Below are positions 40,265-51,673 of a DNA stretch of 64,000 nucleotides, in pieces. Below the pieces are notes generated by a model that saw nothing but the letters and a program-made list of their open reading frames with translations, had not been told where the DNA came from and ran no database searches. The DNA comes from Verrucomicrobiia bacterium (lineage in GTDB: Bacteria; Verrucomicrobiota; Verrucomicrobiia; Verrucomicrobiales; Akkermansiaceae). The stretch covers positions 1 through 64,000 of the forward strand of contig JAUIJD010000018.1 of the NCBI GenBank assembly GCA_030431475.1, read 5' to 3'. Within the stretch, counting starts at the first letter, position 1. Every line of letters begins with the position of its first letter. The position numbers and the translations under genes are program-made.

Positions 40265-42613
40265 TCAACACCTACGAGAGCCACCCGATCGGGCGACCAG
40301 AAGGACGGAAATGATGGAGCTGACGGGCATCAGCACCGCGGCGAGAAGCGGGTTCATGTGACCGCCCAGGCAGATCGCAACGGCGATCAGGTTGTAGAAC
40401 AGGGCGAAAACGAAGGCGGCGCGGACGCCGGAGGCCCGGGCGTCGGCGGCGGCGAAGAGCGCGGGAAGGAAGTCGAGACCGGAGCCGAGCGTGTAGAAAT
40501 CGGATTTGGCCTCGAGCAGGGAGCGGTCGACGACCGGGGTGCCGGTGACGCTGGCGGCGTCGAAGGCCAGCGAGTCGTTGGCGCCGTCGCCGAGGTAGAG
40601 GGTGTCGCCGTGGTCGAGCTCGCGGACCGCAGCGGCCTTCTGGTCGGGATCGAGTCCTCCGCGCGCGTGGGCGCCGGGAATGTCGAGCTGTCCGGCCAGG
40701 GTGGCGACCTTTTCCGGCGTGTCGCCGGAAAGGATGTGGAGGCTGTGATGCCGGCGACGGAGCAGGTCGAGGGTTTCGCGGGCGCCGGGGCGGAGGGTGT
40801 CGCGGAACCGGAAGGCGGCGATCCGCTCGCCGTCGCGGCAGAGCGAGGTGGTGCCGTCGGCTTCGTCGCCGGCCCAGCCGGCGCGACCGAGGGTCCAGTT
40901 GGGCGACGGGGAAGGGCCGTCTTTGGATGGAGGGTCGACGAAGGACACGCCCCGGCCGGGGTGGTCTTCGATTTCGGCGGGGCCGTGGGTGGCGAGAAGC
41001 CGTTGGCCGCGGGCCCCGAGGGCTTCGAGCAGGGTGCGTCCGACCGGGTGCAGGGAGCCGGCCGTGAGCCGGGCAAGTGCAAGGGCGGCCTCGTCGTCGA
41101 GGGCGGCGACGGCTTTCGGGTCGACGAGGACGGGGCGCTCGAGGGTGAGGGTGCCGGTCTTGTCGAAGATGACGTGTCTCACGGCCCGCAGGCGCGACCA
41201 CAGGGTGGCGCTGCGGACGAAGGCGCCGTGGCGGCCGGCCCGGGAGGCGGCGAGCTCGTCGGCGAGCGGGATGGCGACACCCAGCGCGCAGGGGCAGGAG
41301 ACGACGAAGACCGAGATCATCGCCTGCAGGGCGGTGGCGGTTTCGCCGAGGGCGAGCCAGACGACAAGACCGCCGACACCGATGAGCAGCACGGCGACGA
41401 GGTAGAATCGAAGCACCTTCTGCAGCACGGGGGAGGCGCGCTCGCCGGAACCTTCGGCCGTGAGGCGGGAAAGGAGTGAGTCGGTCCACGATTCGGTGGC
41501 CTCGAGGGCCAGCGGTTGGCGGCTGAGGAGGATGGCGCCGGCGGGGAGCTGGCGGCCGGGGCCGGTGACGACGGGATCGGCTTCGCCGTTGATCCATTCG
41601 AGCGAGACCTCGGCTTCGGCGTCGCGGACGGTCGAGGCGACCGGGATGGCCTGGCCCGGCTGGATCTCGAAACGGGTGCCGGGCGCGAGCGACTCAAGCG
41701 GAGTAGGTTTCTCGTCCACCGTGACCGAACCCGGCAGCGGGGAGGCGCGTTGCAGGCGGCGGCGGTTCTTGTCCACGGCCGAAGTCTGCAGGTAGCGGCC
41801 GCCGAGCATCAGGAAGACGAAGGTGGCGACGAAGTCGAAGTAGCGCAGGCCGTCGATCTGGAGCCCCCAGCCGGCGATCGAGCCGGCGTAGGCGAGGACC
41901 AGCCCGAGCGCGATGGGGAGGTCGATGTGGAGGGACTTCGCCCGCAGGGCGCGCCAGGCGCGGTCGATGAAGTAAGAGCCTCCGACCAGCATCGATAGCG
42001 TGGCCGAGATGAAGGCGATGAGCCGGAACAGCCCGGCGAACTCGAAATCATCGGGCATGCCGAGGTAGTGGGGCAGGCTGAAGCCCATCGCGTTGAGCGC
42101 GAAGGCACCGCAGAGTCCGAGCCGGGCGACGAGCCGTCGGCCCTCGATGTCGGCGGTGCCGGCGGCGGCGGGCGCGGCGACGTAGCCGAACTGCGTGAGT
42201 TCCTCGCAGAAGGCCTTCAGGTCGCAGCGCCCGGGCTGCCACTCGAGGTGGAGCCGTCCGGACGCCGGATGGGCGGCGGCGCGGATGGCGCCGGGGTGCT
42301 TGTCGAAGAGTTTCTCCACCAGCCACACGCAACCGACGCAGGAGATGCCCTCGAGGGCGCAGTCGAGCTTGGCGGAGCCGTCGGTGGCGCGGCCTTCGGC
42401 GTCGGCGACGCGGGCGTCGAGCCAGGAGAAGTCGTGGTTCTCGAAAGGCCGGCTGCGGACCGGCGCGGTTGCGAGCCCGCCCTTGAGGTCGTAGAAGCGG
42501 TCGAAGCCCGCGTCCTCGATCATCCCGGCGACGAATTCACAGCCCTTGCAGCAGTATTTCTCCTCCGGATCGGAGGCGGAAAACGCGGTGCCGCAGTGCT
42601 CGCAGGTGGGCAT
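40265..42613 (-). CDS. Heavy-metal P1B-type ATPase (CtpA/CcoI-like)
   Basis: A 782-residue copper-type transporter. It has an N-terminal Cys cluster (CEHCGTAF, CCKGC), an HMA domain with ISCVGCVW, eight predicted membrane helices, the CPC metal motif in SCPCALGVAIP near residue 440, DKTGTLT with the phosphorylated Asp near residue 480, and GDGANDS. In the actuator domain the usual TGE is NGE (WINGEADPV). It resembles the FixI/CcoI group that loads copper into oxidases, but cytochrome oxidase genes are not adjacent. The first 188 codons are duplicated 7213 bp away. The ATG at 42613 begins PTCEHCG. Confidence 0.9.
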   Translation of the reverse strand: MPTCEHCGTAFSASDPEEKYCCKGCEFVAGMIEDAGFDRFYDLKGGLATAPVRSRPFENHDFSWLDARVADAEGRATDGSAKLDCALEGISCVGCVWLVEKLFDKHPGAIRAAAHPASGRLHLEWQPGRCDLKAFCEELTQFGYVAAPAAAGTADIEGRRLVARLGLCGAFALNAMGFSLPHYLGMPDDFEFAGLFRLIAFISATLSMLVGGSYFIDRAWRALRAKSLHIDLPIALGLVLAYAGSIAGWGLQIDGLRYFDFVATFVFLMLGGRYLQTSAVDKNRRRLQRASPLPGSVTVDEKPTPLESLAPGTRFEIQPGQAIPVASTVRDAEAEVSLEWINGEADPVVTGPGRQLPAGAILLSRQPLALEATESWTDSLLSRLTAEGSGERASPVLQKVLRFYLVAVLLIGVGGLVVWLALGETATALQAMISVFVVSCPCALGVAIPLADELAASRAGRHGAFVRSATLWSRLRAVRHVIFDKTGTLTLERPVLVDPKAVAALDDEAALALARLTAGSLHPVGRTLLEALGARGQRLLATHGPAEIEDHPGRGVSFVDPPSKDGPSPSPNWTLGRAGWAGDEADGTTSLCRDGERIAAFRFRDTLRPGARETLDLLRRRHHSLHILSGDTPEKVATLAGQLDIPGAHARGGLDPDQKAAAVRELDHGDTLYLGDGANDSLAFDAASVTGTPVVDRSLLEAKSDFYTLGSGLDFLPALFAAADARASGVRAAFVFALFYNLIAVAICLGGHMNPLLAAVLMPVSSIISVLLVARSGGSRRC

Positions 42614-42634
42614 GGGGGGAGGCTGCGCCTCCAA
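42047..42634. repeat. Source copy of the duplicated ATPase segment
   Basis: This 588-bp block from the 5' part of the ATPase gene and 21 bp upstream recurs at 49260-49847 with the same orientation and spacing (offset 7213). By eye there are three substitutions, all synonymous, and no indels. Homology stops at the microhomology ATCATCG (42047-42053) on one side and just past GCCTCCAA on the other. Confidence 0.95.
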
Positions 42635-43042
42635 TGACAAATGATAAATGCCAAATGACGGAAGGTGCGTCGTGCTCTACACCATGCCGTTCCCTGCGCC
42701 TTACCCTCTACGACCACGCTCGTCGTTTCACCCCGTGCGGCTATCCGCGTATCTGATCAAGAACGAAGCGCTGCATGCCTTCTGAGATAATCGTCTTGTT
42801 CGGCGGAGACCAACGAGCTTGATTCGGGGTGTCCGCTCCGGCGGATGGGGTCTGATAAACCTCGCACTGTGCGGCCGGCATCGGCCGCGAACGATGCCGC
42901 CAAACCGAATGAAAAAGGTCGGGGAGGCGGTGGCGCATGTCCAGGCGGCCGCCCCGGCGGTGGCTAAAGGCCATCGCGGCCGACACAGTGCGGCTTTATC
43001 ACTCCCCGTCCACCGGAATGGTTCGACCACCATCTTTTTCCG
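42635..43042. other. Spacer without recognised genes
   Basis: Between the ATPase start and the secreted-protein cassette. It contains a perfect GC hairpin (GCGGCCG, GCAT loop, CGGCCGC, 42871-42888) and an 81-codon open frame on the minus strand (42741-42986) without convincing coding character. No similarity to the corresponding spacer at 49848-50899 is visible beyond a few bases. It may hold the cassette promoter, but I cannot point to one. Confidence 0.5.
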
Positions 43043-43858
43043 ATGAAACCCCCATTCCTGCCCGCACTCGTCGCGGCGCTCGTGCTGCCGGTCTCCGCGC
43101 AGACCAGCGGATTACGCGCCGACTCGCCTCTCCGCGTCGCTGATGCCGTCCCCGACCCGGCTGCGATCCGCTTCATCCCGCCGCCCCCACCGGAGCCGGC
43201 TCCCGAGATTCCCGCCGTCTCCGCCACCGTCCGCGACTACGGCACCCACCGCGTGACCATCGCGCGCGGCGAGCCTTCCACACGACCCGACATCCCCCCG
43301 CCACCGCCACGGATTTTCACCTCTCCCAACACGCAGTTTGAAGCGCCGGACATCGACTTTCTCTCCATCTTTGCCGTCGTAACCATCTACGACCATGCCC
43401 TTTCCCATCTGAAATGGACCGATACCCGCAGCGGTGAGTCCTTCGAGGCGTGGTGCGCGTGGGATTGGGAGCTGGTCTCGCCCATCGGCGAACTCACCGC
43501 CGAAAAGCTTCGCTGTTCCGTGTTCTGCCTTCCTCATTCCGTCGATACGAAAAGAGACCTTCCCGTCGGCATTCCGAAACCCGTCATCCCGGCGCATCCC
43601 GAACTCGCTCCGGACACCTTCGCGATCACCGCCGGAAACGCCGCCGCCCCGCTCGGCGACGCCTTCCTCGAAGCCTACCGCAGCCACCTTGTGGAAAACC
43701 GTCCCGCACTGGAAGCTGCCCTCGCCGCTCGAAAGCGAGCGGCGGCCGATGCCGCCGCGTGGCGCGCCGCGCATCCTCCCGTGCCGCAGGACACCACCAT
43801 CTGGCTGCGCCCGCACCGCGGCAGCCGCTATCTGGACGGAAAGGAGGCCGCGCGATGA
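43043..43858 (+). CDS. Secreted protein, first gene of the cassette
   Basis: A 271-residue product with a signal peptide (LPALVAALVLPVSAQ). The mature part starts Pro-rich (IPPPPPEPAPEIP, PPPPPRIFTS), has an aromatic core (WTDTRSGESFEAWCAWDWEL) and ends in a helical Arg/Ala-rich region. No family is recognised. Its TGA overlaps the ATG of the next gene as ATGA, so the three genes to 48560 are translationally coupled. Confidence 0.7.
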   Translation: MKPPFLPALVAALVLPVSAQTSGLRADSPLRVADAVPDPAAIRFIPPPPPEPAPEIPAVSATVRDYGTHRVTIARGEPSTRPDIPPPPPRIFTSPNTQFEAPDIDFLSIFAVVTIYDHALSHLKWTDTRSGESFEAWCAWDWELVSPIGELTAEKLRCSVFCLPHSVDTKRDLPVGIPKPVIPAHPELAPDTFAITAGNAAAPLGDAFLEAYRSHLVENRPALEAALAARKRAAADAAAWRAAHPPVPQDTTIWLRPHRGSRYLDGKEAAR

Positions 43859-46800
43859 GTTCCCCGTCCGGATCATCGCGTCTTCCACGGACCGCGTGGC
43901 TCCCGTCGCGCATCTTCGCGTCGGTTCTCTTCATCTCCGCCCTTCTCGCATCCGCCACCGCCCCGGCCACCGATCAGGATTCCGAAATCATCATCGTCCC
44001 CGCCGGGGATTCCTTCCTGCGCTGGACCGCCGAACCCGGCCGCACCTACTTCATCCAGGCATCGGCCTCCCTCGACCAGTGGCAGTGGTCCGACCTCATC
44101 GAGACCGGCCAGGGCCAGCAGATCAGCTACGAGATCGGTAGTAATTCCGGCAGGGGCTTCGTCCGGCTCGTCCATACCGACGAACCCGTCCCGCAGGGAG
44201 TCACCCCCGAGGACTGGGATGCCGATGGGGACGGACTTTCCAACCATCAGGAGATCGCGACCTACCAGACCCATCCGCTGCTTGCCGACACCTCCGGTGA
44301 CGGTTTGATCGACGGCTGGGCGGTCGCCCACGGGCTCAACCCGCTGGCCGACAACGGCGCCGGTCTTTTCCAAGGCGGCCCCTCCACCAACCTCGAAGCC
44401 TACCAGGCCGGTGTCCTCGCCGATCCCGACGCCACCCTCGACGACCACGATGCCGACGAGGTCCCCAACGATGCCGACGCCGACCCCTCCGATCCCGACG
44501 TCACCTGGTCACCCGCGCCCGAAGCATCCTACGTCCTCATCGATATCGATCATCCCCTCGCCGAAGAACTCGGGCTTGAGATCAACGACAAAGGCGAGGT
44601 CCTTTTCCAGAACGGCATCTGGTCCGCGGGAAACTGGATCGATCCGGGTCCGGACGGCCCCTTCGATTACCTCGTCGGCGACCCGGAGGTCGAATACTCG
44701 ATCACCGGATCGGATTTGCATCACTTCAACACCGATGGATCTCTCCTGGGCCTCGGCAGCTCACCCGATCCCTACGGCGGCGACCCCCTCCTGGCCACCA
44801 TCCACCGGCCCGCCGGACAGAGCGCCGGCCCCCTCGGCGACTTCGACGATTACCCCGATGTCACCCCGTTCTCCTACCGCCCCCGCGGCCTCGATGCTGC
44901 GGGAAAAGCCTACTGCCTCGAAAGCACATCGACTTACAGCGAAGGTGCCGGCTGGGAATATTTTTCCCACGTCACGATCTTCACCCCCGGCGGCGATCCC
45001 GCCGACCTGCCCAATCCCGTCGACCGCTTCCCTTTGCCGAATGAGTTCGCCGAAGCCTTCGACGTCACCCGCAACGGCTGGGTCGCCCTCAACGCCGCCG
45101 CGGACCTCCAGAGTCCCTATTCCAACGCACGCCCCGTCCTCTGGAACGATCAGGGAGCCCTCACGAGCCTTCCCGACGCCCTGACCGGCTGGTTCTCCGG
45201 CCTCGCACTCGAAGAGATCGAGGACGGCCCCGCCATCCTCTGCACCACCGGCAGCAGCTCCGCCGTCCTCGTGCCCGATGAGGTGGCGCAGGGGCAGCCG
45301 CCCGCCATGCGCATCGCCGGGAAGCTCACCGCCCACGGCATCCTCCGCTTCGCGCCCGACGGCACCGGCATGACCGCCGACCAGCACCTCTGGCGAAACG
45401 GCGAACTCCTGCCCCTGGCCGACCTGTGCGAAGACCTCGCCGAAGCCGGGGCCGCCGGTCGGTTCGTCGTCCCCGTCGATGCCAACCGTTCCGGTGCATG
45501 GCTCGTCCACCTCCACGACTCCGCCCAGACCGCCCCGAGCGAAACGAAGATCCTCCTGCCCGCGTCCATCGTCCCGGACCACAATCGGGATGGCTTGATC
45601 AATTTCGAAGATCGCGGGCAAATCTCGGAGGCGCATCCGTGGCGTTTCTGGGTAAACGATGACGACGATTCCGGCGAAACCGGCGGAGACGATGTTCCCC
45701 GGGCAGATCCTCTTGAGGAACCGGATTACCTAAACGGTAACATCGACGGCATCCGTGACCTGGTGGATTTCTTCGCATTGAAACTCGAACTAGGCGATTT
45801 GACGGAAGTTCTACCCCCCGGGAGTTTCGACTACTTCCTCACACACGATTCACAACTACAGCTTCAGGTTCCTGGGAATCCGTATGAGTCTTCACTTGGA
45901 GTGATCTGGCGGCCGGATGTGGACCCCGGGGCGGATCCCGTCGGAGACGAGGCCGCCGGCTCCTATCTTTTCAACCTCGACCATGCCGAGCAGATCGGCG
46001 GAGCTGCGGTTCATGACATTCCCGAGGACGGCCTCCTGATTCCGGGCGAGATGCTCGATGCGGCGGATCAGGATCAGGGCGTGGTTCTGGTCGAAGGCCG
46101 ACATGCCACGACCAATCCTCTCGCGCTGGAAGTCCGCAAAAACGACGGCACCGTGGTTGCCCGAATGGAATTCACCCTGCGGGTTTCCGGTGTGGAGGAC
46201 ATGCTCCGCTGGCTCTACGTCTTGCCCGGCGCGGCCGATCTGACCACGCAGGACATTCCGGCCGATCCTCCGAACTGGCCGGATGCCGACCGGAACGGCA
46301 AACACTTCGTCTTCGTTCACGGCTACAACGTGAGCGGCGAGGTTTCCCGCGGCTGGGCGGCGGAGACCTTCAAACGCCTGTTCTGGTCCGGCAGCAACGC
46401 CCGCTTCACCGCTCTCGCGTGGAGGGGAAACCAGGGCCAGATCGCCGGAATAACCCCGGACTATCAGGTCAATCTCGACAATGCCTTCGGGACTGCCGCC
46501 TCGTTCAAGCAGCTTCTCGACCTGCTCGAAGGCGAAAAAACCGTGGCCGCCCACAGCATGGGCAACATCCTCGTCGGCAGCGCCATGCATGACTGGGGTG
46601 CCCGCCCGGAGCATTACTTCATGCTGGATGCGGCGGCCGCCAAGGAATGCTACGATCCCACCGAAGCCGGAGATGCGGACCAGGACACCCGGATGGCTCA
46701 TCCGGCGTGGACATGGGTCGGATACCCCAAGGAATTCAGGGCCAGTGAATGGCACGCCCGACAATGGACGGCGGGCGACCATCGAGCCACTCTTACTTGG

Positions 46801-47553
46801 AAAGGCCGCTTCCGAAACGTGATCGCAAACGGAGGCTTGACCGAGGTTTACAACTTCTACTCATCCGGCGAGGAGGTGCTGAACAATCCGGAAACCAACA
46901 ACCCCGATCTGGATACGAGCAATCCTTTCAGTAATGGCAATCTTACCTGGACCAAAGCCAACAAGGCTTGGGCGATGCAGGAAAAACGCAAGGGACTGGG
47001 CTTAACCGGCTACGTCCAGTCGAGCAATCACGGGGGATGGCTTCCGAATCTATATCCCTACGACACCACCATCCATGTTTTGGTCGGGCAAGACGCGTGG
47101 AGGATGCGTTTCCCCGTAGAACTCCCCCAGCCACCCGACATGGCTTATTACAACTTCCTCGCCAGTCTAACCACGAGACCGTTTTTCGACAACAGCCAGG
47201 AAACGACCTTGTTTCACTTCGACGAAGGCCCCGGAACCACCGGATCCGAGCATGCCCGAACACGACGTAACACTATCATCTCCGAAATGATCCCCTGTAC
47301 CACCTTCGCTGCGGGAAGAAATCCATTTAATGATCCCATCAGCTCGCTACCAATTGATAGAAATATTGACATGCACACAAGCATGATGACCGACTCAAGC
47401 CGCTGGCCGGAATCGGATGAGCATGATCCTGAGGCGAATCTACCGAGGCCTTGGTTGCATAGCGACTTTCGGGTAAAGGCTTTCACTCACAACTGGAAGC
47501 TGTTCAAAACCTTTATCGATATTGCCTATCTAAACGAATCCGACCAGCCATGA
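43855..47553 (+). CDS. Large secreted TSP3 and alpha/beta-hydrolase protein
   Basis: A 1232-residue exported protein. A signal peptide ends near residue 37. A beta domain follows, then TSP3 calcium loops at about 120-155 (DWDADGDGLSNHQE, DTSGDGLIDGW) and further Asp-rich loops. Near 640 is another (DHNRDGLINFEDRG). Residues about 815-990 look like a GPI-deacylase/lipase-type alpha/beta hydrolase: FVFVHGYNVSGE is the oxyanion-hole strand and TVAAHSMGN the nucleophile elbow (Ser901). The elbow begins with Ala in place of the usual first Gly. The last 250 residues are unrecognised and more AT-rich. It is coupled by ATGA to both neighbours. Confidence 0.75.
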   Translation: MSSPSGSSRLPRTAWLPSRIFASVLFISALLASATAPATDQDSEIIIVPAGDSFLRWTAEPGRTYFIQASASLDQWQWSDLIETGQGQQISYEIGSNSGRGFVRLVHTDEPVPQGVTPEDWDADGDGLSNHQEIATYQTHPLLADTSGDGLIDGWAVAHGLNPLADNGAGLFQGGPSTNLEAYQAGVLADPDATLDDHDADEVPNDADADPSDPDVTWSPAPEASYVLIDIDHPLAEELGLEINDKGEVLFQNGIWSAGNWIDPGPDGPFDYLVGDPEVEYSITGSDLHHFNTDGSLLGLGSSPDPYGGDPLLATIHRPAGQSAGPLGDFDDYPDVTPFSYRPRGLDAAGKAYCLESTSTYSEGAGWEYFSHVTIFTPGGDPADLPNPVDRFPLPNEFAEAFDVTRNGWVALNAAADLQSPYSNARPVLWNDQGALTSLPDALTGWFSGLALEEIEDGPAILCTTGSSSAVLVPDEVAQGQPPAMRIAGKLTAHGILRFAPDGTGMTADQHLWRNGELLPLADLCEDLAEAGAAGRFVVPVDANRSGAWLVHLHDSAQTAPSETKILLPASIVPDHNRDGLINFEDRGQISEAHPWRFWVNDDDDSGETGGDDVPRADPLEEPDYLNGNIDGIRDLVDFFALKLELGDLTEVLPPGSFDYFLTHDSQLQLQVPGNPYESSLGVIWRPDVDPGADPVGDEAAGSYLFNLDHAEQIGGAAVHDIPEDGLLIPGEMLDAADQDQGVVLVEGRHATTNPLALEVRKNDGTVVARMEFTLRVSGVEDMLRWLYVLPGAADLTTQDIPADPPNWPDADRNGKHFVFVHGYNVSGEVSRGWAAETFKRLFWSGSNARFTALAWRGNQGQIAGITPDYQVNLDNAFGTAASFKQLLDLLEGEKTVAAHSMGNILVGSAMHDWGARPEHYFMLDAAAAKECYDPTEAGDADQDTRMAHPAWTWVGYPKEFRASEWHARQWTAGDHRATLTWKGRFRNVIANGGLTEVYNFYSSGEEVLNNPETNNPDLDTSNPFSNGNLTWTKANKAWAMQEKRKGLGLTGYVQSSNHGGWLPNLYPYDTTIHVLVGQDAWRMRFPVELPQPPDMAYYNFLASLTTRPFFDNSQETTLFHFDEGPGTTGSEHARTRRNTIISEMIPCTTFAAGRNPFNDPISSLPIDRNIDMHTSMMTDSSRWPESDEHDPEANLPRPWLHSDFRVKAFTHNWKLFKTFIDIAYLNESDQP

Positions 47554-48560
47554 AATGGACCATGACGACCTTAGCCGTGATCTGCTGCGCCTCCCTTGCT
47601 CGATGCGAGGAATACCCGAAGAGTCATTACGTGCTTGAAGCACAGGTTAAAGATGACCGGGGCGCCCCCGTGGCTACAGCATCCATCCAGGGGGCGAAGG
47701 TGGCGCTGAAGAAAGAAGGTGTTCCGCACGGAAGCAACGTACGGATCGAAGCTGCCACCGATGACAAAGGTAAAGCGCTCCTTGCATTTGAATCGCTTCC
47801 CGGCGTGGGAGGTGTATCGATTCAGAAAGATGGATATTACCCCTCTTTCCACCCGGTGGATTGGATTCGAGATACCCATTCGAGTGATTACAAGGCAGTG
47901 CTGAAGGTTGCTCTCAAGCCAGTTAAGAAGCCAATTGCCATGTATGCCTTTGACAACACGGGTAACGCCCGAGGCATTGTGAAAATCCCAGTGATCGGGG
48001 AAAGTTATGGCTTCGATCTTATGAGAGGCGCGGCGCTTCCTCCTCTTGGCAATGGAGAAACATCGGACTTCACGTTCAGAGTCGAAGGGGATTGGGAAAG
48101 TATCGAGTCGTATAGGCTCAAATTGGTCGTCGAATTTCCTCATCCGAAAGACGGTGTGGTTGAATTCATGACGCCTCAGCGCAGGGGAAAGAGGGAGCCC
48201 CAAATGTTCGGTAGTAGGCTCATCTCCTCCTACCATGCCCCCGAGGAGGGCTACCGCGGGCGACTCGTCAGGATCACAGGAAAGCCCGAGCAGAAACAAG
48301 ATGCCCGGCATCAGGTGGATTTTCATAGGAATTACTATTTCCGGTGCAGGACCAAAACGGACGATCAGGGAAACATTATTAGCGCGAATTATGGAAAGAT
48401 TTATGGAGACTTCAATTTCGATGCGGCCCGGGAGGAGTGGGGCTATCGTGCAACCCTTCTCATGATGACGACTTATTTCAATCCCACACCCAACGATCGC
48501 AACGTTGAGTTTGATCCGAAGAGGAATCTGAATCCTGATACTGGAATCATTAGACCATGA
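47550..48560 (+). CDS. Secreted protein with carboxypeptidase-regulatory-like domain
   Basis: A 336-residue product with a signal peptide (TTLAVICCASLARC, with Cys as a possible lipidation site). Residues about 25-125 (LEAQVKDDRGAPVATASIQG to YKAVLKVALKPV) match a carboxypeptidase-regulatory/CnaB-like beta-sandwich. The C-terminal 200 residues are unrecognised. Codons are clearly more AT-rich than the surrounding genes, as in the 3' end of the upstream gene. By position it could be a partner or immunity-like protein of the large secreted protein. That is inference. Confidence 0.65.
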   Translation: MKWTMTTLAVICCASLARCEEYPKSHYVLEAQVKDDRGAPVATASIQGAKVALKKEGVPHGSNVRIEAATDDKGKALLAFESLPGVGGVSIQKDGYYPSFHPVDWIRDTHSSDYKAVLKVALKPVKKPIAMYAFDNTGNARGIVKIPVIGESYGFDLMRGAALPPLGNGETSDFTFRVEGDWESIESYRLKLVVEFPHPKDGVVEFMTPQRRGKREPQMFGSRLISSYHAPEEGYRGRLVRITGKPEQKQDARHQVDFHRNYYFRCRTKTDDQGNIISANYGKIYGDFNFDAAREEWGYRATLLMMTTYFNPTPNDRNVEFDPKRNLNPDTGIIRP

Positions 48561-48593
48561 TGATTTGGGTTCTCCGTCAATTTTCCTACTGTG

Positions 48594-48800
48594 CAGGTCG
48601 CCGCGCGCGAGGCGCTGCGGCGGGCAACGGAAGAGAGCGTGGATGCCACGGTGGCGGCGTATCAGGACGGGAGCGCTTGTGTGGAGCTCATCGCGGGGCT
48701 GCGCGGCAAGGACCACGCGCTCACGCTCTCGCTGCGCCGCATCCGCGAGGGCATGAGCAACCCCGCCGCACGCGGCCCGCAGATGCCGCCGACGTCCTGA
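48594..48800 (+). pseudogene. Fragment of an unrelated GC-rich gene
   Basis: Composition jumps from AT-rich to GC-rich near 48594. From there an open frame runs to a TGA at 48800, encoding QVAAREALRRATEESVDAT followed by about 50 well-behaved residues. No proper start is present, so it looks like the 3' remnant of a gene cut at the junction. The parent is not recognised. 48801-48976 holds short GGGTA-type repeats and nothing else. Confidence 0.4.
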
Positions 48801-48976
48801 ATGGATTCGCAATAATCTGACAACCAAGAGGTTGTGTATTCCGAAGCGTGGTGATCATCGAAATCCCCCGGGTTGCGCTCCCCCCAACCAAGGTTGTGAA
48901 GATCCGCCCCTCGGGTAGGGTGCGGCTACCTGCGGGTAGGGATGCGGGTATCCGGGGGTGATTCCTTTTCTCCGTC

Positions 48977-49266
48977 TCACCGCGTCACGCCACGCTGGGA
49001 TCCTTCGAGGAAGGCGATGAGGTGCTTCACGTGCGGGTTGTTGGCGGGGGTGTCGGCCTTGAGGGAGGAGACCGCCATGCCGAGGTTGCCGTCCTTCTTC
49101 AGGAACAGCCGCTCGTAGGCGGTGCGGAGGGCCTTCAGGTCGTCCTCGGTGAACCCGCGTCGGCTGAGGCCGACCTGGTTGATCGCGCGGGTGGTGGCCG
49201 GGTTGCCCTCGACCACGGTGTAGGGGGCGACGTCCTGGGTGATGCGCGAGCAGCCGCCGATCATCG
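48977..49266 (-). pseudogene. Duplicated 3' fragment of lpxA
   Basis: A 290-bp copy of the last 96 codons of lpxA (parent at 50900-51189, offset 1923). It encodes IGGCSRITQDVAPYTVVEG through the C-terminal acyltransferase helices to GSQRGVTR. By eye there are three substitutions, one changing Lys to Glu (YERLFL instead of YKRLFL), and no indels. It has no start of its own and is fused at ATCATCG (49260-49266) to the ATPase fragment in a different reading frame, so it is almost certainly not translated as LpxA. Confidence 0.9.
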
Positions 49267-49826
49267 GGCATGCCGAGGTAGTGGGGCAGGCTGAAGCCCA
49301 TCGCGTTGAGCGCGAAGGCACCGCAGAGTCCGAGCCGGGCGACGAGCCGCCGGCCCTCGATGTCGGCGGTGCCGGCGGCGGCGGGCGCGGCGACGTAGCC
49401 GAACTGCGTGAGTTCCTCGCAGAAGGCCTTCAGGTCGCAGCGCCCGGGCTGCCACTCGAGGTGGAGCCGTCCGGACGCCGGATGGGCGGCGGCGCGGATG
49501 GCGCCGGGGTGCTTGTCGAAGAGTTTCTCCACCAGCCACACGCAACCGACGCAGGAGATGCCCTCGAGGGCGCAGTCGAGCTTGGCGGAGCCGTCGGTGG
49601 CGCGGCCTTCGGCGTCGGCGACGCGGGCGTCGAGCCAGGAGAAGTCGTGGTTCTCGAAAGGCCGGCTGCGGACCGGCGCGGTCGCGAGCCCGCCCTTGAG
49701 GTCGTAGAAGCGGTCGAAGCCCGCGTCCTCGATCATTCCGGCGACGAATTCACAGCCCTTGCAGCAGTATTTCTCCTCCGGATCGGAGGCGGAAAACGCG
49801 GTGCCGCAGTGCTCGCAGGTGGGCAT
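49260..49826 (-). pseudogene. Duplicated 5' fragment of the metal ATPase gene
   Basis: The first 188 codons of the ATPase (N-terminal Cys cluster, HMA domain and the first hydrophobic segment) are copied from the start ATG at 49826. At the junction the frame continues into lpxA DNA out of phase, adding about 135 unrelated residues (to 48855). All three differences from the parent are synonymous. If transcribed it could yield a soluble or single-helix HMA-domain protein; most likely it is a pseudogene. Confidence 0.9.
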
Positions 49827-49910
49827 GGGGGGAGGCTGCGCCTCCAAGGCCGATTGATAAATGAAGAATGGCGAAAATGAGAGGCGGAGCCCGGTGCTGG
49901 AGGGGGTATG

Positions 49911-50168
49911 GGAGGATGGGGGGATGGGAGGATGGGCAGGATGGGAGGATGGCAGGATGGCAGGATGGGCAGGATGGGCAGGATGGCAGGATGGCGGGAT
50001 GGCGGGATGGCGGGATGGCGGGATGGCGGGATGGCGGGATGGGCAGGATGGGCAGGATGGGCAGGATGGCAGGATGGCAGGATGGCAGGATGGGCAGGAT
50101 GGGCAGGATGGGCAGGATGGCAGGATGGCGGGATGGCGGGATGGCGGGATGGCGGGATGGCGGGATGG
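49911..50168. repeat. Minisatellite of 8-9-bp GGATGG-type units
   Basis: About 258 bp of units such as GGATGGCGG, GGATGGCAG and GGATGGGCA. There is a higher-order pattern: runs of GGGCAGGAT, then GGCAGGAT, then six GGCGGGAT, and the whole pattern occurs twice (about 49967-50040 and 50092-50166). It lies between the chimeric fragment and the left REP element. Open frames through it only encode Gly/Trp/Met/Arg or Pro/Ser/His repeats and I do not call them genes. 49848-49910 shows nothing. Confidence 0.9.
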
Positions 50169-50175
50169 AGTGGCA

Positions 50176-50220
50176 GGCCCGGAGGGCCATCGGAGATTAG
50201 CCGGTGGCGCGAGCCACCGG
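50176..50220. repeat. Left REP element of the RAYT unit
   Basis: Two hairpins, GGCCCGGAGGGCC and CCGGTGGCGCGAGCCACCGG, joined by ATCGGAGATTAG. It lies downstream of the transposase stop. The right element at 50764-50807 is the same sequence inverted. Confidence 0.85.
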
Positions 50221-50269
50221 ATGGTGTTGTCGCGGGCCACACCGCCCCGAAGGGGTGGTGGACCTCGAC

Positions 50270-50716
50270 TCACCAGAGATATCGCTCATCAAAATCCACC
50301 CCGCTCAACCGGAGCAGCTCGCGGTATTCCTCTTGAAAGCTCCGTCGCCGATGATGCTCTTCCTGGCGGGCGATGTAGTCCTTCACCAACTCTCGCTGGG
50401 ATGTACTCACCGTGAAGGCGCCATAGCCCTCCTGCCAGGCGAAGCTCCGGTCGGAGATCTCATCGTGAACCCATTTCGAAGACACCGATTTCAAATCCCG
50501 GATGACGTCGGCAAGGCGGACCGTGGCACGCAGACCGATGAGCAGATGGACGTGGTCCGCGACGCCGCCGATGGCTTCGGGGACGGCTTCCGACGTTTTC
50601 AAGACACCACCCATGAAGGCGTGCAGGCGGTCGCGCCATGCGTCGCGGATCAAAGGGGCCCGGTCCTTGGTGGAAAAGACGACGTGGTAATGGAGGGAGA
50701 GATGGGTCGAGGGCAT
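50270..50716 (-). mobile_element. REP-associated tyrosine transposase (Y1/IS200-like)
   Basis: A 148-residue HUH-family transposase. It has LSLHYHVVFSTKDRAPLI at the N terminus, the metal-binding HVHLLIGL (His-x-His) near residue 66, and a candidate catalytic Tyr in ELVKDYIARQEEHHRR. It acts on single-stranded hairpins. Inverted two-hairpin REP elements flank it on both sides (50176-50220 and 50764-50807), the standard layout of a RAYT with its own REPs. The gene looks intact. Confidence 0.9.
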
Positions 50717-50763
50717 GGCGGATCCAGCGCTCCTCCGGAGCGCGAAGGCGGTGCTAACCAAAA

Positions 50764-50807
50764 CCGGTGGCTCGCGCCACCGGCTAATTTCCGAACGCCC
50801 TCCGGGC
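50764..50807. repeat. Right REP element of the RAYT unit
   Basis: CCGGTGGCTCGCGCCACCGG, then CTAATTTCCGAA, then CGCCCTCCGGGCG. This is the reverse complement of the left element apart from a few bases in the linker. It lies 47 bp upstream of the transposase start. Confidence 0.85.
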
Positions 50808-50832
50808 GAATGGGCGAGCCGCCGAATTACCG

Positions 50833-50872
50833 GACCACCGAACCACCGAACCACCGAACCACCGAACCGCCG
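50833..50872. repeat. 8-bp microsatellite (ACCACCGA x 5)
   Basis: Four perfect and one imperfect (ACCGCCGA) tandem copies lie between the right REP and the end of lpxA. No function is evident. Confidence 0.8.
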
Positions 50873-50899
50873 AATGGGCGAACGATCGACGCGCCGACC

Positions 50900-51673
50900 T
50901 CAACGCGTCACGCCACGCTGGGATCCTTCGAGGAAGGCGATGAGGTGCTTCACGTGCGGGTTGTTGGCGGGGGTGTCGGCCTTGAGGGAGGAGACCGCCA
51001 TGCCGAGGTTGCCGTCCTTCTTCAGGAACAGCCGCTTGTAGGCGGTGCGGAGGGCCTTCAGGTCGTCCTCGGTGAACCCGCGTCGGCTGAGGCCGACCTG
51101 GTTGATCGCGCGGGTGGTGGCCGGGTTGCCCTCGACCACGGTGTAGGGAGCGACGTCCTGGGTGATGCGCGAGCAGCCGCCGATCATCGCGTGGCAGCCG
51201 ATGCGGCAGAACTGATGGATCGCGGCGAGGCCGGAGACGATGGCGTGGTCCTCGACGGTCACGTGTCCGGCCAGCGTGCCATTGTTCGAGAGGATGATGT
51301 GGTCGCCGAGCTGGCACTCGTGGGCGATGTGGGCGTAGCAGAGGAAGAGGTTGTCGCTGCCGATCCGCGTCGGTGTGTGGTCGAAGGTGCCGCGGTGGAC
51401 GGTGGAGTTTTCGCGGAAGACGTTGCGGTCTCCGATGATGAGCTCGGTCGGCTCGCCGGCGTACTTGAGGTCCTGGGTTTTTCCGCCGATGGCGGCGAAG
51501 GGGAAGAACTCGTTCTCGCGGCCGATAGTGGTGGTGCCCTCGATCACGACATGCGAGTGCAGCGTGCAGCCGTCGCCGAGGGTGACGTGGTCGCCGACCA
51601 CGCAGTAGGGGCCGATTTGAATGTCGCTGCCGAGTTCGGCCTTGGAGGAAACGATCGCCGTGGGGTGGATCAC
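50900..51673 (-). CDS. lpxA: UDP-N-acetylglucosamine acyltransferase
   Basis: A 257-residue left-handed beta-helix acyltransferase, the first step of lipid A synthesis. Hexapeptide repeats run from VIHPTAIVSS through IQIGPYCVVGDHVTLGDG. AIGGKTQDLKYAGEPTEL is the LpxA signature, and FRENSTVHRGT plus the active-site His region (LAHIAHECQLGD-type, here YAHIAHECQLGD) are present. The GTG at 51673 gives the normal length; upstream residues are not homologous. Its last 290 bp are duplicated at 48977-49266. Confidence 0.95.
   Translation of the reverse strand: MIHPTAIVSSKAELGSDIQIGPYCVVGDHVTLGDGCTLHSHVVIEGTTTIGRENEFFPFAAIGGKTQDLKYAGEPTELIIGDRNVFRENSTVHRGTFDHTPTRIGSDNLFLCYAHIAHECQLGDHIILSNNGTLAGHVTVEDHAIVSGLAAIHQFCRIGCHAMIGGCSRITQDVAPYTVVEGNPATTRAINQVGLSRRGFTEDDLKALRTAYKRLFLKKDGNLGMAVSSLKADTPANNPHVKHLIAFLEGSQRGVTR

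Follow-up and report, generated by a model that had tools for sequence, protein, structure and literature searches.

A fusion of lpxA and metal-ATPase gene ends as the apparent join point of a direct duplication that encloses two different spacers

How did a fusion of the 3' end of lpxA and the 5' end of a metal-ATPase gene come to lie between intact copies of both genes? The question was addressed in a Verrucomicrobiia bacterium (Akkermansiaceae), in a window of 64,000 nucleotides (assembly GCA_030431475.1, contig JAUIJD010000018.1, positions 1 to 64,000), where the locus consists of the following features.

40265..42613, minus strand: intact CcoI/FixI-like P-type metal ATPase gene of 782 aa (Pfam E1-E2_ATPase, HAD hydrolase and ATPase-cat_bd)
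42047-42634, minus strand: parent of the ATPase part of the chimera (first 567 bases of the ATPase gene with its leader)
42664..48976, plus strand: spacer 1, with a structured leader, three genes that overlap one another (271, 1232 and 336 aa) and a 67-codon orphan open tail (from open reading frames and GC content)
48855..49826, minus strand: open frame of 323 codons through the chimera (from translation)
48977..49266, minus strand: copy of the lpxA 3' end, stop codon included (3 differences in 290)
49260..49266, minus strand: junction microhomology ATCATCG (plus-strand letters), common to both parents
49260..49847, minus strand: copy of the ATPase 5' end with its start-codon leader (3 differences in 588)
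49877..50899, no strand assigned: spacer 2, with a GGCRGGAT minisatellite (about 49905-50170), a REP (RF01687), a RAYT gene, an inverted REP and ACCGAACC repeats
50270..50716, minus strand: RAYT-type Y1 transposase gene (Pfam Y1_Tnp, E = 7.7 × 10−25) between inverted REPs (50177-50220 and 50764-50807)
50900..51673, minus strand: intact lpxA of 257 aa (Pfam Hexapep and Acetyltransf_11), with the parent of the lpxA part of the chimera in its last 290 bases

When the two parts of the chimera (48977-49847) were compared with their parents by repeat search and base by base, 48977-49266 differed from 50900-51189, and 49260-49847 from 42047-42634, by three substitutions each and no indels, which matched to the base the count made by eye in the initial annotation. 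The substitutions are at 48980 (C/A), 49114 (C/T) and 49226 (G/A) in the lpxA part and at 42137/49350, 42470/49683 and 42524/49737 in the ATPase part. The rest of the described structure was also confirmed: all copies retain the parental orientation, the chimera is placed between the two intact parent genes, and its parts overlap by the seven bases ATCATCG, which are present in both parents. On a reading of the minus strand, lpxA (51673-50900) comes first, followed by spacer 2, the fusion, spacer 1 and the ATPase gene (42613-40265), and within the fusion the ATPase start (49847-49260) lies upstream of the lpxA end (49266-48977). Judging from these alignments, an identity of about 99 % or more over several hundred bases cannot be chance.

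The similarity to lpxA ends at the stop codon. On the ATPase side no sharp end was observed, and the similarity fades over a CATTT-type leader of approximately 29 bp (42635-42663 versus 49848-49876, approximately 65 % identical). A leader of this type recurs in the genome. It consists of CATTT-type repeats and the palindrome GGAGGCGCAGCCTCC (with a Shine-Dalgarno-like GGAGG), followed by ATG or GTG in the position of the start codon, and it was observed at no fewer than eight sites (window 42611-42660, C39:10494, C67:219743, C55:21371, C34:34716, C93:120026, C21:10811 and C21:66970). At the junction between the two parts, a shared stretch of at least 7 bp was obtained in only 0.11 % of 400,000 simulated random joins of lpxA and the ATPase gene (P = 0.0011), and a microhomology-dependent join is therefore favoured.

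The copies were checked against related genomes, as the initial annotation had proposed, using a set of 57 genomes (one per species, own genome G000 included). Only G000 carried a further near-identical piece of lpxA or the ATPase gene, and none of the 56 others did. ATPase orthologues adjoin lpxA in the sister species E54 (G017) and in G014, each with a single, unduplicated ATPase-lpxA arrangement. In E54 the two genes are 170 bp apart in the matching orientation, and its lpxA is 87 % identical to the intact lpxA (50900..51673). The spacer measures approximately 0.66 kb in G014, and in G016 it is about 5 kb long and holds unrelated genes; in the remaining relatives the ATPase gene and lpxA are not close neighbours. 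Thus, the order ATPase-spacer-lpxA appears to be ancestral for the group and the duplication private to the G000 lineage. As is typical of a tandem duplication, the two far ends of the duplicated segment are fused in a hybrid that sits between two direct copies, and the outer parents are intact. We infer from this arrangement that the ATPase-5'/spacer/lpxA-3' segment underwent a genuine direct duplication, specific to this lineage, and that 48977-49847 marks its join point.

The initial annotation had explained the chimera as the junction of a tandem duplication with breakpoints inside the two genes. The analysis supported this interpretation in part. It is consistent with the order and orientation of the copies, the intact parents, the microhomology and the ancestral adjacency of ATPase and lpxA, but the two spacers share no homology, so that it names the right class of event (a direct-duplication join point) and is incomplete. 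Spacer 1 is a 6.3 kb three-gene operon and spacer 2 is 1.05 kb of minisatellite and REP-RAYT sequence; the gene copies that flank them are 99.3 % identical. Sequence comparison of the two spacers yielded no common stretch beyond the flanking gene ends, and the identical internal sequence that both units of a fresh, unmodified tandem duplication contain is thus missing. The ancestral spacer was not found inside spacer 1, nor did spacer 1 show homology to the lpxA-ATPase spacers of G017, G014 and G016. A resemblance to the E54 spacer was seen in spacer 2 alone, whose REP-bearing stretch (50174-50262) is 81.5 % identical to it over 92 bp. Because a plain tandem duplication copies the spacer too, the unlike spacers mean that the simple model needs either a spacer replacement or a join between different alleles.

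Both spacers contain further elements. Along spacer 1 the GC content drops from 67 % to 52 %, and a copy of its first 830 bp (42744-43573) was found with a 98 % match at G000:C35:20594-21423. This copy is abutted by a run of 2,982 N bases (G000:C35:17610-20591; L072 12611-15592), which could reflect either a gap in the assembly or sequence that was withheld. Directly before the first gene of spacer 1 is a candidate structured leader RNA of approximately 170 nt (42846-43018, plus strand; fold z = −4.3). RNAalifold gave 41 pairs, 14 of them kept despite changes on both sides, a count that comes from 13 partly related sequences with no additional control. The leader occurs in 35 copies in 17 of the 57 related genomes (4 in its own genome). 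Where the flanks of a copy were read, an ATG follows downstream in most cases, often that of a secreted-type protein. No Rfam family matched it at E ≤ 1. The 1232-aa gene (43855-47550) looks modular: at about residue 570 its GC content changes from 67 % to 58 % and so do its relatives, the N-terminal half matching G017:C255 and the C-terminal half (a DUF900-like hydrolase, below cut-off) matching G016:C29. Near the lpxA-end copy lies the orphan open tail of 67 codons (48597-48797), possibly another truncation scar. It has no relatives in the genus, and the search for its parent gave nothing beyond a weak match (E = 0.004) in one member of the family.

In the case of spacer 2, RF01687 (Acido-Lenti-1 RNA) was matched at 50175-50220 and 50764-50807 by a REP-like palindrome that is inverted around the RAYT (Y1) gene. 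RF01687 occurs 38 times in this genome and as many as 66 times in members of the genus, often as close inverted pairs. The palindromic repeats thus enclose a Y1 transposase gene here and also occur at many other sites, and the Acido-Lenti-1 RNA family may be a RAYT-mobilised REP element.

Given that the spacers are unlike although their flanking copies are 99.3 % identical, a join between two molecules seems the most likely origin of the locus. We put the probability at about one half that the locus arose by illegitimate recombination, homology-facilitated or in a merodiploid, between two alleles with different spacers. One molecule would be the resident ATPase-spacer-lpxA locus, and the other a homologous but non-identical allele with the other spacer, supplied by an incoming fragment or a co-resident chromosome. 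The two molecules would be held together on one side by homologous pairing and closed on the other by an illegitimate join at ATCATCG. The product would read ATPase, spacer 1, lpxA tail/ATPase head, spacer 2 and lpxA, with both parents whole and a dead fusion between the cargoes. The locus contains a single microhomology junction (ATCATCG), as in homology-facilitated illegitimate recombination, and the 588 and 290 bp copies, about 99 % or more identical, are long enough to serve RecA as a homologous anchor. A ComEC-type gene is present in the genome, which is not proof of competence.

Differences among the relatives bear on the supply of such alleles. The lpxA-ATPase spacer differs in each of the four species with linked genes, and the DNA 3' of lpxA diverges from the stop codon onward in every relative compared. 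Spacer polymorphism within a species is therefore plausible, and it would make it natural for the dead lpxA copy to break off exactly at its stop codon. The repeats would also allow later resolution by RecA: recombination between the 588-bp copies would remove 7.2 kb, and between the 290-bp copies 1.9 kb, leaving in either case a clean locus with a single spacer. A more speculative extension, which we hold doubtful, is that the spacer between lpxA and the ATPase gene is a cargo hotspot for accessory operons swapped among strains, and that this genome is an intermediate with two cargoes stacked, resolvable by RecA to either.

The main rival of the two-allele join is a plain tandem duplication on one chromosome, arising through microhomology-mediated slippage or through template switching from one sister chromatid to the other. 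In this scenario the 6.3-kb operon would later have taken the place of the spacer in unit 1, and the RAYT gene and repeats would have been acquired by unit 2. We consider it a serious but tentative alternative. It does not require a second strain. Insertion alone is insufficient, however: no remnant of a common spacer was found in both units, and a complete swap within 0.7 % divergence is therefore required. The lpxA-side edge of this swap would moreover have hit a stop codon that the copy no longer needed. On the other hand, the REP of the E54 spacer is retained in spacer 2, and spacer 1, being partly duplicated on contig C35, has a history of moving.

The substitutions speak to both models. 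Five of the six differences between copies are synonymous, as would be seen between two functional alleles. The sole non-synonymous change (lpxA 634, at 49114; K to E) affects a lysine conserved in all relatives compared and is derived in the chimera, so that it falls in the dead copy, in favour of the plain tandem duplication. Polarisation with relatives placed four of the six substitutions, this one included. The intact genes carry the derived state at lpxA 522 and ATPase 90, and probably also at lpxA 768 (E54 ends in CGG), and the resolvable derived changes in intact genes are synonymous. Divergence after a single duplication would also account for a non-synonymous change in the dead copy alongside synonymous ones in the intact genes. 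The pattern is compatible with either model, six differences being too few to decide.

An artefact of assembly or library, in which two alternative loci were fused by way of chimeric reads or a mixture of strains, is unlikely. A strain mixture would likewise give two alleles with different spacers, and the genome is a draft of 109 contigs with the N run beside the spacer 1 repeat on another contig. Against this, completeness is 95.3 % and contamination 0.26 %, and the window contains no N runs. The overlap of 7 bases at the junction should by itself be too short for an assembler to join on.

Translation of the chimera frame (ORF 48855-49826, minus strand) gives 189 ATPase codons and then out-of-frame lpxA, and the N-terminal ATPase-cat_bd was the sole Pfam domain found. 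A functional in-frame fusion was rejected because the lpxA part is out of frame after the junction. It is highly improbable that the chimera was selected as a gene for a useful short metal-binding protein or as a regulator of its neighbours. The open frame of 323 codons does retain the N-terminal metal-binding domain, but the lpxA part is read out of frame, no relative has the chimera, one conserved LpxA residue is already altered, and long chance frames are expected in a GC-rich context. The chimera has no evident function of its own, and its open frame is probably without function.

The locus thus appears as a well-preserved, recent scar of illegitimate recombination (0.7 % divergence) in Verrucomicrobiota, a phylum in which gene exchange is, to our knowledge, little studied. 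With its mismatched spacers, it offers a case in which allele stacking, as opposed to simple copying, can be tested. The locus shares with the tandem-duplication join points of bacterial merodiploids the direct repeat order, a truncated hybrid, intact outer copies and short junction homology, whereas here the two units have different spacers. In Streptococcus pneumoniae, transformation generates merodiploids by recombination with donor DNA, which yields a direct duplication as observed here, and a small 3.3-kb duplication without flanking repeats was also found (PMC3784515). The events modelled there use long repeats, in contrast to 7 bp here, and transformation is only putative for our locus. 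Homology-facilitated illegitimate recombination was proposed for the T6SS immunity-gene arrays of Vibrio cholerae (PMC5361080). In that model, homology aligns an incoming cargo on one side while the other side is joined illegitimately, and the old cargo ends up displaced next to it with a truncated gene, much as in the two-allele join proposed here. The Vibrio model rests on many strains and ours on one locus, and unlike the Vibrio arrays the cargo here bears no sign of an effector-immunity module. The kind of event is already known, and the locus is unusual only in that its two duplicated halves enclose completely different DNA.
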